In this document: piece by piece, positions 42,627 through 50,129 of the stretch
How positions within the stretch are numbered: position 1 is the stretch's first letter
Layout of the letters: the number at the start of each line of letters is the position of its first letter
NCBI GenBank assembly: GCA_937899835.1
Contig: CALCCE010000284.1
Coordinates: forward strand, 1-50,129
DNA from: an uncultured Flavobacteriales bacterium
Lineage (GTDB): Bacteria; Bacteroidota; Bacteroidia; Flavobacteriales_G; Salibacteraceae
Direction of reading: 5' to 3'
DNA: 50,129 nt
Notes under the pieces: generated by a model
Seen by the model: the letters and a program-made list of their open reading frames with translations, nothing else
Databases searched by the model: none
Told to the model about the DNA's origin: nothing
Translations under genes and position numbers: made by a program

Positions 42627-43115
42627 ATGCACCAAACACACGTAAGTACCCATGGCGGTATCACCGTCATCAGCTCCGAAATTGAAATTAAAGCAAGAAA
42701 GAACAAAGTATGGGAGGTGCTGCGCGACATTGGCGGAATTGCCCAATTTCACCCTTTGGTGAAAGCATCCAAAACCCTATCACACACCGCTTCTGGCTTA
42801 GGCGCCAGGCGCTACTGTGCCTTATTGCCCATGGGCTCCATGGAAGAAGAGGTAATTGCGTGGCACGAGGGCCAATCTTTTGTGATGGAGGTAGTTGGCG
42901 GCCAACTGCTTCCGCCTCATAAGTTCATGAAAGGGCACATCGAATTAAGCGACAACTACGATTCCACCAAGGTGCGGTTCTCCTTTTCCTACCAATTAAA
43001 ATATGGTGTATTGGGCCGTTGGATGAATGCCTTGTTGATCCAACCTCAATTCAAAAAAGCACCACCACAATACGTTCAAGGGTTGAAAGCCTATGTGGAG
43101 AACACCGCTCATTGA
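42627..43115 (+). CDS. SRPBCC (START-like) family protein
   Basis: A 162-residue SRPBCC protein: ISSEIEIKARKNKVWEVLRDIGGIAQFHPLVKASKTLSH is the first strand-helix-strand; GLGARRYCALLPMGSMEEEVIAWHEGQSFVMEV the central sheet; and the C-terminal helix is GVLGRWMNALLIQPQFKKAPPQYVQGLKAYVEN. No membrane anchor, unlike its counterpart at 2143-2715. It resembles proteins that hold hydrophobic molecules, and the ligand is unknown. The last 7 nt overlap the end of the convergent ECF42 sigma gene, which places both operons in one locus. Confidence 0.88.
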   Translation: MHQTHVSTHGGITVISSEIEIKARKNKVWEVLRDIGGIAQFHPLVKASKTLSHTASGLGARRYCALLPMGSMEEEVIAWHEGQSFVMEVVGGQLLPPHKFMKGHIELSDNYDSTKVRFSFSYQLKYGVLGRWMNALLIQPQFKKAPPQYVQGLKAYVENTAH

Positions 43116-44335
43116 TCCATCTTTTGAGCAATCAATTGCTTCTCCTGGTCGGATTTGGACAGTTGGAAGGCTTGTTGGAAATAGGGCTGCGCTTTGGAAG
43201 ACAAGCCCAATTCTACGTAGCATACGCCTATGGCGGTATGATAGTGTACATGCTGCTGAAGTGCCGGCTCCTTTTTCAACTGGAGCAAATCCATCAGAGC
43301 TTCCTCCCGGTTGATTCCATAAAACCTGGCGATGGCCTTGTTCAGCGAAAGCAAGGGGCTGGGCTGTAGTTTTTCCAAAATTTGATATTGTCGGTAGATA
43401 GCGGCCCAATTGGTAGTGGCAAAATCCTGAGCCAGGCAATGTTCGGCAGCAATGCCCGCTTGTAAATGATAAGGGCTTACCTCCTCGGATTGTATGGCTT
43501 CACTCAAGTATTCCATCCCCTCCCCGATCAGGCCCTGATCCCAAAGCGCCCGATTTTGATCGGAAAGCAAAACCAAAGTGCCCGCCTCGTCTACGCGGCT
43601 TTCGAAGCGGGCCACGTTGAGCAACATCAACGCGAGCAGCGCTTTGGCCCTGGTTACCTCCGAATATAGTCGCACGATTTCTTTGGTCAACCGAATGGCT
43701 TCAAAACACAAATCCATGCGAATGACTTTTTCGTGGTGAGCCGAATAATACCCTTCATTAAAAAGTAAATAAAGGGTGGTAAAAACGGCATCCAAACGTG
43801 CATTCAAGGCTTCTTCTGGCGGAAGATCGAAAGTCACCTCGCCTGCTCTAAACTTTTGTTTGGCCCGGTACAAACGCTTGTTTACGGTAGCTTCGTTGGT
43901 GAGCAAAGCGTGGGCAATCTCACCGATGCTGAGGCCACAAAGTATTTTTAGCGCTAAGGCAATTTGCGAAGCCACCGGCAAGGAGGGGTGACAGCAGGTA
44001 AAAACCATGCGCAGCGTGCTGTCTTCCTCCAGGGACTCGTTTTCGAAAAGCGTACCGATTTCAACGTTGGGGAGCACTTTGGTTTCGAAGGTTTGGTGGC
44101 GCCTCAAAAAATTGATGGTTTTCTTTTTGGCCACGTCCATCAGCCACCCTTCAGGATTATCAGGAATGGCATGAACGCTCCATTTTTCCATGGCTTCCAC
44201 CAAGGTTTCCTGTAAAATGTCTTCGGCAATTTCTACTTCTCTCAAGCCGAAATACCGCACCAGGATGGCCAGCATTTTGGCATAACTGTACCGAAAGAAG
44301 TGTTCGGCCAATTGCTCCTTCGAAGCTTCAGTCAT
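43109..44335 (-). CDS. ECF42-type RNA polymerase sigma factor with C-terminal TPR-like extension (locus 2)
   Basis: 408 residues from ATG 44335 (a TTG in frame two codons upstream is less likely). Region 2 includes AEDILQETLVEAMEKW and GWLMDVAKKKTINFLRRHQ; region 4 includes ILCGLSIGEIAHALLTNEATVNKRLYRAKQKFR; then DUF6596 with FNEGYYSAHHEKVIRMDLCFEAIRL and TPR-like helices to the end. Same architecture as the factor at 21-1256. It is the last gene of a five-gene minus-strand operon. Its ATG overlaps the stop of the YCII gene by 8 nt (ATGACTGA), so sigma synthesis is coupled to that of its DGPF partner. Confidence 0.93.
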   Translation of the reverse strand: MTEASKEQLAEHFFRYSYAKMLAILVRYFGLREVEIAEDILQETLVEAMEKWSVHAIPDNPEGWLMDVAKKKTINFLRRHQTFETKVLPNVEIGTLFENESLEEDSTLRMVFTCCHPSLPVASQIALALKILCGLSIGEIAHALLTNEATVNKRLYRAKQKFRAGEVTFDLPPEEALNARLDAVFTTLYLLFNEGYYSAHHEKVIRMDLCFEAIRLTKEIVRLYSEVTRAKALLALMLLNVARFESRVDEAGTLVLLSDQNRALWDQGLIGEGMEYLSEAIQSEEVSPYHLQAGIAAEHCLAQDFATTNWAAIYRQYQILEKLQPSPLLSLNKAIARFYGINREEALMDLLQLKKEPALQQHVHYHTAIGVCYVELGLSSKAQPYFQQAFQLSKSDQEKQLIAQKMDQ

Positions 44336-44657
44336 CGGCAACCATGGGTCTTACAAAAATCTCAAAATACTGCAACAGCGGAGATGCGTTGGCCATGGCG
44401 GTAGCGTGCGCCAAATCCCGGGCCTTTAAAATGATAAATCCGGCAATGATTTCCTTGGCTTCTAAAAATGGACCATCTGTCACAATGGAGTCTTTCGCTT
44501 GAATGTGGGCTCCTTCCCTTTCCAGGCGGTTGTCGTCCACATAATAAGCACTAATGGTGTCCACCCAAGCACGGTACTCCTCTATCCTTTTTTGCAGTTG
44601 CTCAGGCGAATAGTCCAAGGCTTTTTTCCCTTTCAACAAGAGTAAATAGTGATTCAT
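44328..44657 (-). CDS. YCII/DGPF-domain protein
   Basis: A 109-residue DGPF protein with an intact signature (IVTDGPFLEAKEIIAGFIILKARDLAHATAMANASPL) and a typical YFEIFVRPM end strand. The N-terminus MNHYLLLLKGKKALDYSPEQLQKRIEEYRAWVDTI matches the family. It overlaps the DUF2461 stop by ATGA (44654-44657) and the sigma start by 8 nt. This is the canonical ECF42 partner; the catalytic role of DGPF proteins is unsettled. Confidence 0.92.
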   Translation of the reverse strand: MNHYLLLLKGKKALDYSPEQLQKRIEEYRAWVDTISAYYVDDNRLEREGAHIQAKDSIVTDGPFLEAKEIIAGFIILKARDLAHATAMANASPLLQYFEIFVRPMVADD

Positions 44658-45313
44658 GTCAACGCCTTTTTAAGAAATTGATTCAGTGGATAAATCGCCT
44701 TGAAGTGCTCCATGAGCACCGTATTGAGTTGATCGGAGTTAAGGTAAGGAGCCAAATCGAATTGGCGCATGGCATAAAATTGCTTGTTGGCAATGAGCTT
44801 GGTTTTTTCCAAAACAGGCTGTAGGTCCTTATCGATCCGTTTGGCACGATTGCCCTTCAATTCACCGAAGTGGTGCACAAAGGGCGCGGCAGAAACAATG
44901 CTTACAAACCCCTGCGTATCGTCTGCAATGGCCTGCCGGATGCGTTTCAAATCCGCTCCGCTTAGGTTCATCAATCCACCTCCGGCGTGAACGCGGTGTG
45001 CCCCAATGCCCAAATAAAAGCCCGGCAATTTGGATTTTTTGCCTCCGGGAGCAAAACTGGCCTTCATCAGAAGGTTGTAGGGTGTTTTGTCTTTCGAAAA
45101 GCGGACATCCCGGTTGATTCGAAACAGGGCATCTTTGGGGTTGGGAGCGATGGCAGCTTCCAATGCTGTAAGTTCTGAAATTAAAGAAGCTACCAAATCC
45201 GTGAAAGGCAATTTTACTTCCTTTTCGTAGGTGGCTTTGTTTGCATGAAACCACGCTTTATGGTTGTTCTGTTCCAGGCCTTCAAAAAAGGCCACATAGG
45301 GTGCTGCAATCAT
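44654..45313 (-). CDS. DUF2461 family protein
   Basis: A 219-residue member of DUF2461 (TIGR02453): FFEGLEQNNHKAWFHANKATYEKEVKLPFTDLVASLISEL opens the domain. DALFRINRDVRFSKDKTPYNLLMKASFAPGGKKSKLPGFYLGIGAHRVHAGGGL is the core with the RDxRFSKDKTPY motif. Function unknown; found in bacteria and fungi. Both ends overlap neighbours by 4 nt (ATGA at 44654-44657 and 45310-45313), so it is translated as part of the DGPF operon. Confidence 0.92.
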   Translation of the reverse strand: MIAAPYVAFFEGLEQNNHKAWFHANKATYEKEVKLPFTDLVASLISELTALEAAIAPNPKDALFRINRDVRFSKDKTPYNLLMKASFAPGGKKSKLPGFYLGIGAHRVHAGGGLMNLSGADLKRIRQAIADDTQGFVSIVSAAPFVHHFGELKGNRAKRIDKDLQPVLEKTKLIANKQFYAMRQFDLAPYLNSDQLNTVLMEHFKAIYPLNQFLKKALT

Positions 45314-45648
45314 CCTTCGGTGGTTAATGTTTGAAGTGCTTTTTCAGCCAGCGGTTCCCACTGATCCTGGTGGGTGTAGGGCACCTCGAACCAGCCGTAC
45401 AATGGCGCCCTTTTGGTAAAAGGGTTAAACACCCGAATTTCGAAATCTTGCGTTTCCGGATCAAACTGCTTTCCGAGTTTGAACACCATTTTTTGCTTTC
45501 TTGAAAAGAAGGCAAACACTTTGCCTTCGTAGGTAATGGCCTCAGAGCTCATCATTTTTCCGGGCGCTACCAGCGGTACTTTTTCACAGAATTCCGTGCG
45601 GATTTCCAGGAAACGTTCCCGTTCAGCTTGCTTGATCACATCCTTCAT
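45310..45648 (-). CDS. TfoX/YjbR-like small protein
   Basis: A 112-residue protein resembling the YjbR/TfoX-N superfamily: MMSSEAITYEGKVFAFFSRKQKMVFKLGKQFDPE, then VPYTHQDQWEPLAEKALQTL, the usual closing helix. Enzymatic activity is not expected. It starts 1 nt after the stop of the upstream YCII gene and its stop overlaps the next start. Confidence 0.75.
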   Translation of the reverse strand: MKDVIKQAERERFLEIRTEFCEKVPLVAPGKMMSSEAITYEGKVFAFFSRKQKMVFKLGKQFDPETQDFEIRVFNPFTKRAPLYGWFEVPYTHQDQWEPLAEKALQTLTTEG

Positions 45649-45649
45649 A

Positions 45650-45979
45650 TCACATCGATTTTAAAGGATGAACGATCACCCGACCTCCGTTTTGGAGGAT
45701 GGGGTTGTGCTGGCACAACTTAGCCGCTTCGTCAATATCCTTTGCCTGAATGACCATTACTCCCCCTAATTTATTCTTTTGCGTCAAAAATGCCCCTTGG
45801 TCATCGATCGACTCTTGGGTGACTTGCCGACCGGTGGCATTCTCCACCAGCAAACCAGACTTAAAGTGCTGGCCCGCGTTCAGCACGTCCATAAATTTTC
45901 CATACGCTTCGTAATGGGCGCTCATTTCGCTGGGATACTCAGGCGCTCCGCCAAAAAAGAGGATGACAAATTCTTCCAT
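45650..45979 (-). CDS. YCII-like protein, DGPF motif altered
   Basis: 109 residues from ATG 45979 (MEEFVILFFGGAPEYPSEMSAHYEAYGKF). It aligns with YCII proteins through the N-terminal strand, VTQESIDDQGAFLTQKNKLGGVMVIQAKDIDEAAKLCQHNPIL and the VIVHPL end. The signature loop reads DDQGAF in place of TDGPF. The frame is open upstream, but the domain and the promoter spacing favour 45979. It heads the five-gene ECF42 locus-2 operon. Confidence 0.85.
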   Translation of the reverse strand: MEEFVILFFGGAPEYPSEMSAHYEAYGKFMDVLNAGQHFKSGLLVENATGRQVTQESIDDQGAFLTQKNKLGGVMVIQAKDIDEAAKLCQHNPILQNGGRVIVHPLKSM

Positions 45980-46025
45980 GGTTCTTTGTTGTTTGGTAAA
46001 ACAATACGTGTTTATAGCAATGTCA

Positions 46026-46048
46026 AACGGGCAACAAAAAATAGGACA
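46026..46048 (-). promoter_or_regulatory. Putative ECF42-dependent promoter, locus-2 DGPF operon
   Basis: On the minus strand TGTCC (46048-46044), 14 nt, then CGTT (46029-46026) continuing as CGTTTGA. It lies 47 nt upstream of the YCII start. Spacing and both boxes agree with the sites at 2756-2778 and 41989-42011. Confidence 0.6.
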
Positions 46049-46160
46049 GGCTTTGCTTGAGCTTTTTAGAACTCCTGGTAATCTCCTGGTTTTGATCCTT
46101 GTAAATACCTTTGTTTTCCAAGCGAAATCGACACGGTAAAGCCCTGACGACTTTTCAATC

Positions 46161-46664
46161 ATGAACCACTATAAATCCATCGCCCTACTCGTTCTGCTTT
46201 GGGGTATTGCAAGTGGCCTGGGGCTGAAATACAGCATCCCCATGATGAAATCGATCAACGACACGGACTTGATGGTTTTGTCTGCAACCATACCGGTCAT
46301 GTTCTTTCCCGGTACCCTGGTTTTTGCCTGGAAACGCCCTATTTGGTGGGTAGTCGTGGTACAGCTGCTCATTTCCTTAGTGGCGGCCGTCATTTCCGGT
46401 TATTTCATCGATACGGTACTCAGAAATCTGCTTTTGGGCGTATTATCTTCCCTCATTTTATTTGTGGCTTCCCGGTTAGCGAAGAATCTCAAAGCGCAAC
46501 TCATTCTTTCGTTTGGCCTGGCTTTTCTATTCTTTACGGCAGCCAACATTTATGGCCACCAATTGAATGCAAGCGGATTAGGGGTGTTGGCAAAAGTGAT
46601 TGTTTCCATGGGGCTGAGTTTTGGGGTGTGCCTTTGGGGAATGATGCGGTGGATGCGGTGGTAG
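46161..46664 (+). CDS. Hypothetical integral membrane protein
   Basis: A 167-residue protein with about five membrane segments (SIALLVLLWGIASGLGLKY, LMVLSATIPVMFFPGTLVFAW, PIWWVVVVQLLISLVAAVISGYFI, LLLGVLSSLILFVASRLA, LILSFGLAFLFFTAANIYG, LAKVIVSMGLSFGVCLWGMMRW). No family recognised. It is divergent from the ECF42 locus-2 operon; the 181-bp gap holds that operon's promoter. Confidence 0.75.
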   Translation: MNHYKSIALLVLLWGIASGLGLKYSIPMMKSINDTDLMVLSATIPVMFFPGTLVFAWKRPIWWVVVVQLLISLVAAVISGYFIDTVLRNLLLGVLSSLILFVASRLAKNLKAQLILSFGLAFLFFTAANIYGHQLNASGLGVLAKVIVSMGLSFGVCLWGMMRWMRW

Positions 46665-49160: not shown

Positions 49161-49193
49161 TTAATAGACGCTGGTGGTAAGAAAAGACGCAAA
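49161..49193 (-). promoter_or_regulatory. Putative SigZ-dependent promoter of arsM
   Basis: On the minus strand TTTGCGTCTTTT (49193-49182), 11 nt, then CGTCTATTAA (49170-49161). The element at 49777-49809 before the sigma gene has the same boxes with the same spacing. CGTCTA is a typical ECF -10. The arsM start is 39 nt downstream of the -10 box. Most of this promoter lies between the two genes. Confidence 0.72.
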
Positions 49194-49195
49194 AC

Positions 49196-49753
49196 TTAAG
49201 GATTGTCTCCTAAAAAGTTTTTCGACCCGGGTTTAGGTTGACAATCCACCACTCCCCCATAAACATCGGTTGTAATTTGGCAACAGCGCAAATAGTTGGC
49301 TTTCAACATTTCGCGTCCTCTTTGTACTCGTGATTTTGCTCCGGAGTAGGAAATATCCAATTGCATGGCAAGCTCTTTTTGAGAGACATTTTTAATATCA
49401 GCCAATAGCAAGGCTTGCTTATACTTGTCTGGAATCTCCTCCATCAACGGATAAATGCATTGGGCCAATTCAGCCGTAAGGTCTTCATTTTCATCAGGTC
49501 CATCTTCTGTATCTTGAAACAGCTCATCAAAGTTATTTTTCCGAAAGTGAGAGATTATTTCGTTTCGGGTGATCTGATATATCCAGGAAACGAGTTTCGT
49601 TTTATCTCGAATGGTATCGCTCTTTGTAAAAACCTTGACAAAAACGTCTTGCACAATATCTTTGGCCAGATCCTCATTTTGCACTTTGCTCTGGACAAAA
49701 GAGGTCAAACGATCATTCATACTTGTCCAAGTTGGAAATATTTCATTCATCAT
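49196..49753 (-). CDS. SigZ-type ECF RNA polymerase sigma factor with cysteine-containing tail
   Basis: A 185-residue sigma factor. Region 2: VQNEDLAKDIVQDVFVKVFTKSDTI, LVSWIYQITRNEIISHFRK. Region 4: IPDKYKQALLLADIKNVSQKELAMQLDISYSGAKSRVQRGREMLK. The C-terminal tail NYLRCCQITTDVYGGVVDCQP carries Cys157, Cys158 and Cys171, as in SigZ relatives, and could sense thiol-reactive metal(loid)s. No anti-sigma gene is adjacent. Gene order sigma-arsM and a shared promoter point to an arsenic-response unit. Start ATG 49753; a second ATG directly follows. Confidence 0.9.
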   Translation of the reverse strand: MMNEIFPTWTSMNDRLTSFVQSKVQNEDLAKDIVQDVFVKVFTKSDTIRDKTKLVSWIYQITRNEIISHFRKNNFDELFQDTEDGPDENEDLTAELAQCIYPLMEEIPDKYKQALLLADIKNVSQKELAMQLDISYSGAKSRVQRGREMLKANYLRCCQITTDVYGGVVDCQPKPGSKNFLGDNP

Positions 49754-49776
49754 ATCTGGAATTGATTTACCTGATA

Positions 49777-49809
49777 TTTATAGACGTGCTTGATGAAAAA
49801 AGACGCAAA
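49777..49809 (-). promoter_or_regulatory. Putative autoregulatory SigZ promoter
   Basis: On the minus strand TTTGCGTCTTTT (49809-49798), 11 nt, then CGTCTATAAA (49786-49777). Identical 12-nt upstream box and spacing to the arsM site at 49161-49193. The sigma ATG is 24 nt downstream. Confidence 0.72.
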
Positions 49810-50129
49810 GTTTTTCTATATCAAAGAAATAAAAATGATGTCTAAGGAGGCACTCAAAAAACCTGTCCTGTTGTGAGGCCCTTAATACCACTGGCATCTC
49901 CGTTAATATAAAACATTGAAAATCAGTACGCACCACATTATTCAGATCACCAACGTTTTGCCGAACAAAGACATGAGTAACGGTAATAAAGGGACTCTTT
50001 ACCGTGCCTGAAAGTTCTTCTTGAGTGGTGCTCATCTAATCATATCAAGGGATCGGAATAACGTTTTAAAGCGTATCCGTTAAAATTGCATAGCCTGGAT
50101 TAACCGTCCTCCTATTATATGTTGAACCA
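49810..50129 (-). other. Window end, no confident gene
   Basis: The stretch upstream of the SigZ promoter contains one open frame on the minus strand (49778-50035, 85 codons) beginning MSTTQEELSGTVKSPFITVTHVF. Its first ~60 residues look plausible, but its 3' end runs through the SigZ promoter and has poor composition (FFDIEKLCVFFHQARL). It may be a decayed gene remnant or chance. No promoter, RNA or repeat is otherwise evident up to the window edge. Confidence 0.3.

Follow-up and report, generated by a model that had tools for sequence, protein, structure and literature searches.

The locus raises the question of what a SigZ-type ECF sigma factor controls, and what it responds to, when its neighbouring gene encodes an arsenite methyltransferase (ArsM) and the same promoter-like element stands before both genes. 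The two genes lie close to the end of the window, which is the whole stretch of 50,129 nt analysed here (Table 1). In the usual account of arsenic resistance genes, ArsR represses them. No description of SigZ, or of any ECF sigma factor, controlling arsM was found in the open-access literature searched.

Table 1. Positions of the features discussed, numbered from the first nucleotide of the window.
Feature	Position	Strand	Details
Putative promoter of the sigma gene	49777..49809	-	TTTGCGTCTTTT-N11-CGTCTATAAA; 23 nt to the sigZ ATG
Second putative promoter copy, before arsM	49161..49193	-	TTTGCGTCTTTT-N11-CGTCTATTAA; 38 nt to the arsM ATG
SigZ-type ECF sigma factor, 185 aa	49196..49753	-	Sigma70_r2 and r4_2, short C-terminal extension
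C-terminal tail of the sigma factor, residues 157-185	49199..49285	-	predicted beta-hairpin with C157, C158 and C171
arsM, arsenite methyltransferase, 266 aa	48322..49122	-	NF008823, 326.7 bits (cut-off 263)
ECF42-like sigma	43109-44341	-	DUF6596/TPR tail; same window
Two YCII-domain proteins	44328-44657, 45650-46162	-	with the ECF42-like sigma (43109-46162)

The two copies of the element match the pattern TTTGCGTCTTTT-N11-CGTCTATWAA with zero mismatches and have the same orientation as the genes. The -35-like part of the sigZ copy is TGCGTCTTTT and its -10-like part is CGTCTATA. A CGTC-type -10, the ECF form, is present in both copies (CGTCTATA and CGTCTATT), and the arsM copy starts 2 nt past the sigma stop codon. 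The initial annotation had described a duplicated, equally spaced element with an ECF-like -10 box, 24 nt before sigZ and 39 nt before arsM; both exact copies and the box are confirmed, and the measured distances of 23 and 38 nt agree. No chance copies are expected, as judged from 100 dinucleotide shuffles of the window. In pattern searches used to define the regulon genome-wide, the exact pattern was found twice in the whole 6.9 Mb, before sigZ and before arsM only. The next best sites have two mismatches, and a looser core, TGCGTCYTT-N11-13-CGTCT, returns the same two sites and no others. The detectable regulon in this genome is thus sigZ and arsM. The region from the end of the sigma gene to the arsM copy occurs once in the genome, and its interpretation as a repeat or mobile element was rejected. 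An open reading frame at 49778-50035 (minus strand), which overlaps the sigZ promoter copy and is without a family match, is taken as spurious, and a hairpin at the 3' end of the sigma gene was dropped (fold z-score -0.63, with no terminator there).

The element is a signature of SigZ-type loci well beyond this genome. When 392 Bacteroidota genomes were scanned with a strict pattern, 17 matches were obtained against 5 for the reversed control. Matches were present in 9 of the 18 genomes that encode a close homologue of SigZ, against 4 of the 374 that do not (Fisher p = 6e-11); of these four genomes, one has its match at a SigZ gene that runs off the contig and another has it before an arsM. 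The comparison was then made across 96 SigZ-type loci, drawn from the Bacteroidota loci and a further 80 in named genomes, with about ten other phyla represented. Within 1.5 kb, 55 of these loci contain a total of 71 matches to TGCGTCY-N14/15-CGTC, 66 of them on the strand of the sigma gene, against 2 matches for the reversed pattern and a mean of 0.33 for shuffled sequence. No match was found around the control set, a small one of 12 other ECF loci met in the same scan. An alignment of 20 copies gave two conserved blocks at a near-fixed spacing with a free spacer. The element is conserved before sigZ in Aquimarina, Flagellimonas, Vicingaceae, L010, L011 and others, and the core TGCGTCYTTT-N11/12-CGTCTATA marks SigZ-type loci across bacteria. 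The search for conservation in related loci that the initial annotation had proposed thus found the element kept across phyla, where it behaves as an autoregulated SigZ-type promoter, in line with the suggested link of the sigma to itself and to arsM. Very probably the element serves this sigma family as its promoter, and its pattern of conservation, that of a sigma-dependent promoter, points to transcription by the sigma itself.

The best curated families for the window sigma are the two SigZ models, although its scores fall just below the cut-offs (TIGR02959, 164.6 against 168.65; NF007215, 182.7 against 212). Its Aquimarina orthologue passes TIGR02959. In a quick tree, a branch with support 97 parts the 96 SigZ-type sequences from the 12 other ECF factors, with the window sigma in the SigZ-type clade. 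The genome encodes another SigZ-type sigma (L018, G000:C96:34760-35230), which is 37% identical and has a four-cysteine tail; neither the element nor a recognised arsenic gene was found near it.

The tails of SigZ-type sigmas share a common plan consisting of a CC pair, a turn with a conserved glycine and, in most cases, a C-x(0-2)-C at the end. The window sigma has the CC straight after region 4 and the conserved turn glycine (C157, C158 and G166). C157 is one of two invariant residues among 55 aligned sequences, and the conservation of C158 and G166 is 90% or higher. The window sigma, whose tail ends in VVDCQPKPGSKNFLGDNP, does not have the terminal C-x(0-2)-C seen in most relatives. AlphaFold predicts a beta-hairpin (strands 158-162 and 168-173) right behind region 4.2, with pLDDT 80-91 for the block and a low-confidence 55 for the last five residues. 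C171 would be placed opposite C157 and C158 in this hairpin, as judged from the register of the strands rather than from a distance. The initial annotation had counted three cysteines in the tail. All three are real and Cys99 is the only other cysteine in the protein, but the trio is not a family feature, as C171 is particular to the window sigma and a few others and is not conserved among SigZ relatives. Direct sensing by exactly C157, C158 and C171 as a family trait is for this reason rejected. Given the invariant C157 and the predicted beta-hairpin, sensing by cysteines of the tail is a plausible hypothesis for the window sigma, and it is kept at that strength because C171 is not conserved and the terminal pair is missing.

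The regulation of arsM at this locus differs from that of its closest relatives. C63, C151 and C201 of the window ArsM occupy, in alignment, the positions of conserved cysteines in arsenite methyltransferases of known structure (5evj, 8xt7) and are taken by us to be the conserved arsenic-binding cysteines. Among the 29 Bacteroidota arsM genes most closely related to that of the window, 27 adjoin arsR, and neither the element nor a SigZ gene accompanies any of the 29. At the window arsM there is no adjacent arsR, and ArsR (HTH_5) had no match on the contig; the initial annotation's description of a sigma-linked arsM without ArsR is borne out at the locus. ArsR-type genes are found on other contigs of the genome, one of them in an arsR-arsI-arsC operon from which the element is absent. 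The genome has a single arsM, and acr3 was not found in it. In an arsM tree made with a quick method, the window sequence and that of Aquimarina form a pair (support 100) inside a clade of 32 ArsR-linked Bacteroidota sequences, and 17 other SigZ-linked arsM form a separate clade (support 100). Because the window and Aquimarina genes are far from most sigma-linked arsM in this tree, arsM has probably come under SigZ control at least twice, with ArsR being replaced in the present lineage. The same type of sigma-arsM pair was found elsewhere only in Aquimarina sp. Aq78, with the element in the same place before arsM; at E <= 1e-42, none was found in 395 genomes sampled from the class besides the window itself.

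Arsenic genes accompany SigZ far beyond this lineage. Arsenic-type genes were found within 1.5 kb of 44 of the 96 SigZ loci and of 0 of the 12 other ECF loci (p = 0.0014). The genes were named from NF008823, NF041414, TIGR00832, PF03773, PF10865 and NF040505, and outside the window the calls lean partly on homology to a few queries; they comprise arsM (18), arsI (15), ArsP_1 permease (6), DUF2703 (4), arsC (2) and acr3 (1). The remaining 52 loci have no recognised arsenic gene within that distance. Curated assignments for 109 genes flanking SigZ gave 12 ArsM, 10 ArsI and 3 ArsO. The orders sigZ-element-arsM or element-arsM-sigZ occur in Ignavibacteriota, Lentisphaerota, Pseudomonadota, Chloroflexota, Myxococcota, Planctomycetota and Bacteroidota. 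The link between sigma and arsM is supported, but had been understated, as it extends to arsI, ArsP_1, DUF2703, ArsO-like genes and an acr3 operon.

Not all of the SigZ family is tied to arsenic, as other loci contain PhzF, PatB C-S lyase and unrelated genes. Flagellimonas, which has the nearest sigma relative after Aquimarina, has PatB C-S lyase behind the element and no arsM. A neighbouring SigZ clade (L060, L067, L026, L100 and L020) is found beside PhzF isomerases and has lost all but one of the tail cysteines, hinting at a changed signal or a loss of sensing. Four other sigmas (L013, L014, L019 and L176) form a SigZ branch starting with MKxECCNI and are followed immediately by genes for a thioredoxin-like protein and an ArsP_1 permease; the strict element is absent at these loci. 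This cassette may be mobile, since it is also present on a mobilizable Arenibacter plasmid. In Bacillota, Cyanobacteria and Chloroflexota (L069, L099, L053 and L094), genes for DUF2703 proteins follow the SigZ element, a position that suggests a role in arsenic or thiol stress.

Three kinds of regulation can be compared with the locus. ArsR-regulated arsM genes and ars operons have in common with it the enzyme family, the purpose of arsenic detoxification and a dedicated local regulator, but ArsR represses, whereas the window arsM would be under positive control by a sigma and has no adjoining arsR. ECF42-type factors likewise have a C-terminal extension and no anti-sigma factor; they differ in that the extension is of the DUF6596/TPR type and is unlinked to arsM. 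An ECF42-like sigma with two YCII proteins is present in the same window, and this YCII-protein neighbourhood is the one described for ECF42. Two different anti-sigma-free ECF systems are thus found within 6 kb.

The third comparison is with CorE and CorE2 of Myxococcus xanthus (ECF238, formerly ECF44), which sense Cu and Cd/Zn, respectively; they are ECF factors without an anti-sigma that have a short cysteine-bearing C-terminal extension and control metal-handling genes (PMC3107203, PMC8999054). The CorE extension has four invariant cysteines (181, 184, 192 and 194), with a C-x-C in the linker between sigma2 and sigma4 (PMC3107203, PMC8999054). SigZ-type tails have instead the CC, hairpin and C-x(0-2)-C, of which the window sigma has the CC together with C171. 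Membership of the CorE-like group (ECF238/ECF44) was rejected for the window sigma, whose cysteine pattern differs. CorE nevertheless serves as a precedent for metal gating by a cysteine tail without an anti-sigma factor. The best match of the window sigma remains the SigZ family (B. subtilis SigZ; TIGR02959 and NF007215), in which the tails of relatives are of the CC-x4-D-x2-G-x2-D-Y type. No function is listed for B. subtilis SigZ in the table of a 2023 review (PMC10141391). One plasmid-borne sigZ in Priestia lies beside an aldo/keto reductase gene with no arsenic gene near.

The nature of the two copies, the signal and the means of gating can each be read in another way. Duplicated sequence by itself would also fit a repeat, a transposon remnant or the operator of a repressor. 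This is highly improbable, considering that the genome has two copies only, that conservation is confined to two blocks with diverging spacer between them, that the element tracks SigZ genes on the sigma strand across phyla and that its -10-like CGTC has the ECF form. A different matter is whether the sigma, controlling itself and arsM, senses general thiol or redox stress caused by electrophiles or another metal, with arsM being one of several detoxifying functions that the family controls. The element before PhzF, PatB C-S lyase and other genes in relatives, the closest kin in Flagellimonas without arsM, the missing terminal cysteine pair and plasmid SigZ genes near aldo/keto reductase or glutathione S-transferase genes all speak for such a signal and make it a serious possibility. 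It is held to be rather unlikely, in view of arsenic families being the commonest beside SigZ across phyla and of a detectable regulon here that consists entirely of sigZ and arsM.

It is also conceivable that the sigma serves both promoters in trans with no gate in its own tail, and is controlled by its level alone, through autoregulation and degradation, or by an unlinked anti-sigma factor. The promoter suggests autoregulation, confidence in the predicted end of the tail is low, and relatives differ in their tail cysteines. The initial annotation had stated that there is no anti-sigma gene; this agrees with the absence of anti-sigma domains from the 25 commonest Pfam families among 109 genes flanking related SigZ genes, but the upstream view stops at the contig end (50129), only 376 nt from sigZ, and an unlinked partner may also exist. 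Control without a gating tail is nonetheless judged unlikely, given the invariant C157, the strong conservation of C158 and of the turn G166, the lack of anti-sigma domains among the common neighbours and the example of CorE, a sigma gated by a tail of this kind (PMC3107203).

The reading that we prefer, and regard as probable, is that a SigZ-type ECF sigma and its two promoters form a self-contained regulon at this locus, triggered by arsenicals, in which arsM has been taken over from ArsR. Arsenite, methylarsenite or a similar thiol-reactive compound would enter the cell and act on the sigma, which would be gated, most likely, through the Cys-Cys hairpin tail behind region 4.2 without an anti-sigma partner. 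The activated sigma would bring RNA polymerase to both promoters, yielding more sigma and inducing arsM, and ArsM would methylate the arsenical. In the lineage of the window, the sigma would have taken over an arsM that ArsR controls in related Bacteroidota. The model is weakest at the sensing step because the window sigma is without the terminal cysteine pair. Arsenite and methylarsenite are candidate signals, as are other thiol-reactive compounds; arsenite is uncertain because some SigZ relatives have the element before PhzF or PatB C-S lyase.

It is quite possible, if somewhat doubtful, that SigZ-type sigmas in general include widespread one-component activators that sense arsenicals, the tail binding As(III) or methylated arsenicals and switching on arsM, arsI, arsP or acr3 from TGCGTCYTTT-CGTCTATA, as an alternative to ArsR. 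A sigma family that can be recognised by its promoter and is linked to arsenic in many phyla would represent a second regulatory logic for these genes, positive and self-amplifying, and would offer a likely function for SigZ-type sigmas that have none. The promoter signature may be used to find new arsenic genes, with DUF2703 and unnamed permeases already located behind the element. The locus itself would be a clear example of a conserved enzyme whose regulator has been exchanged.
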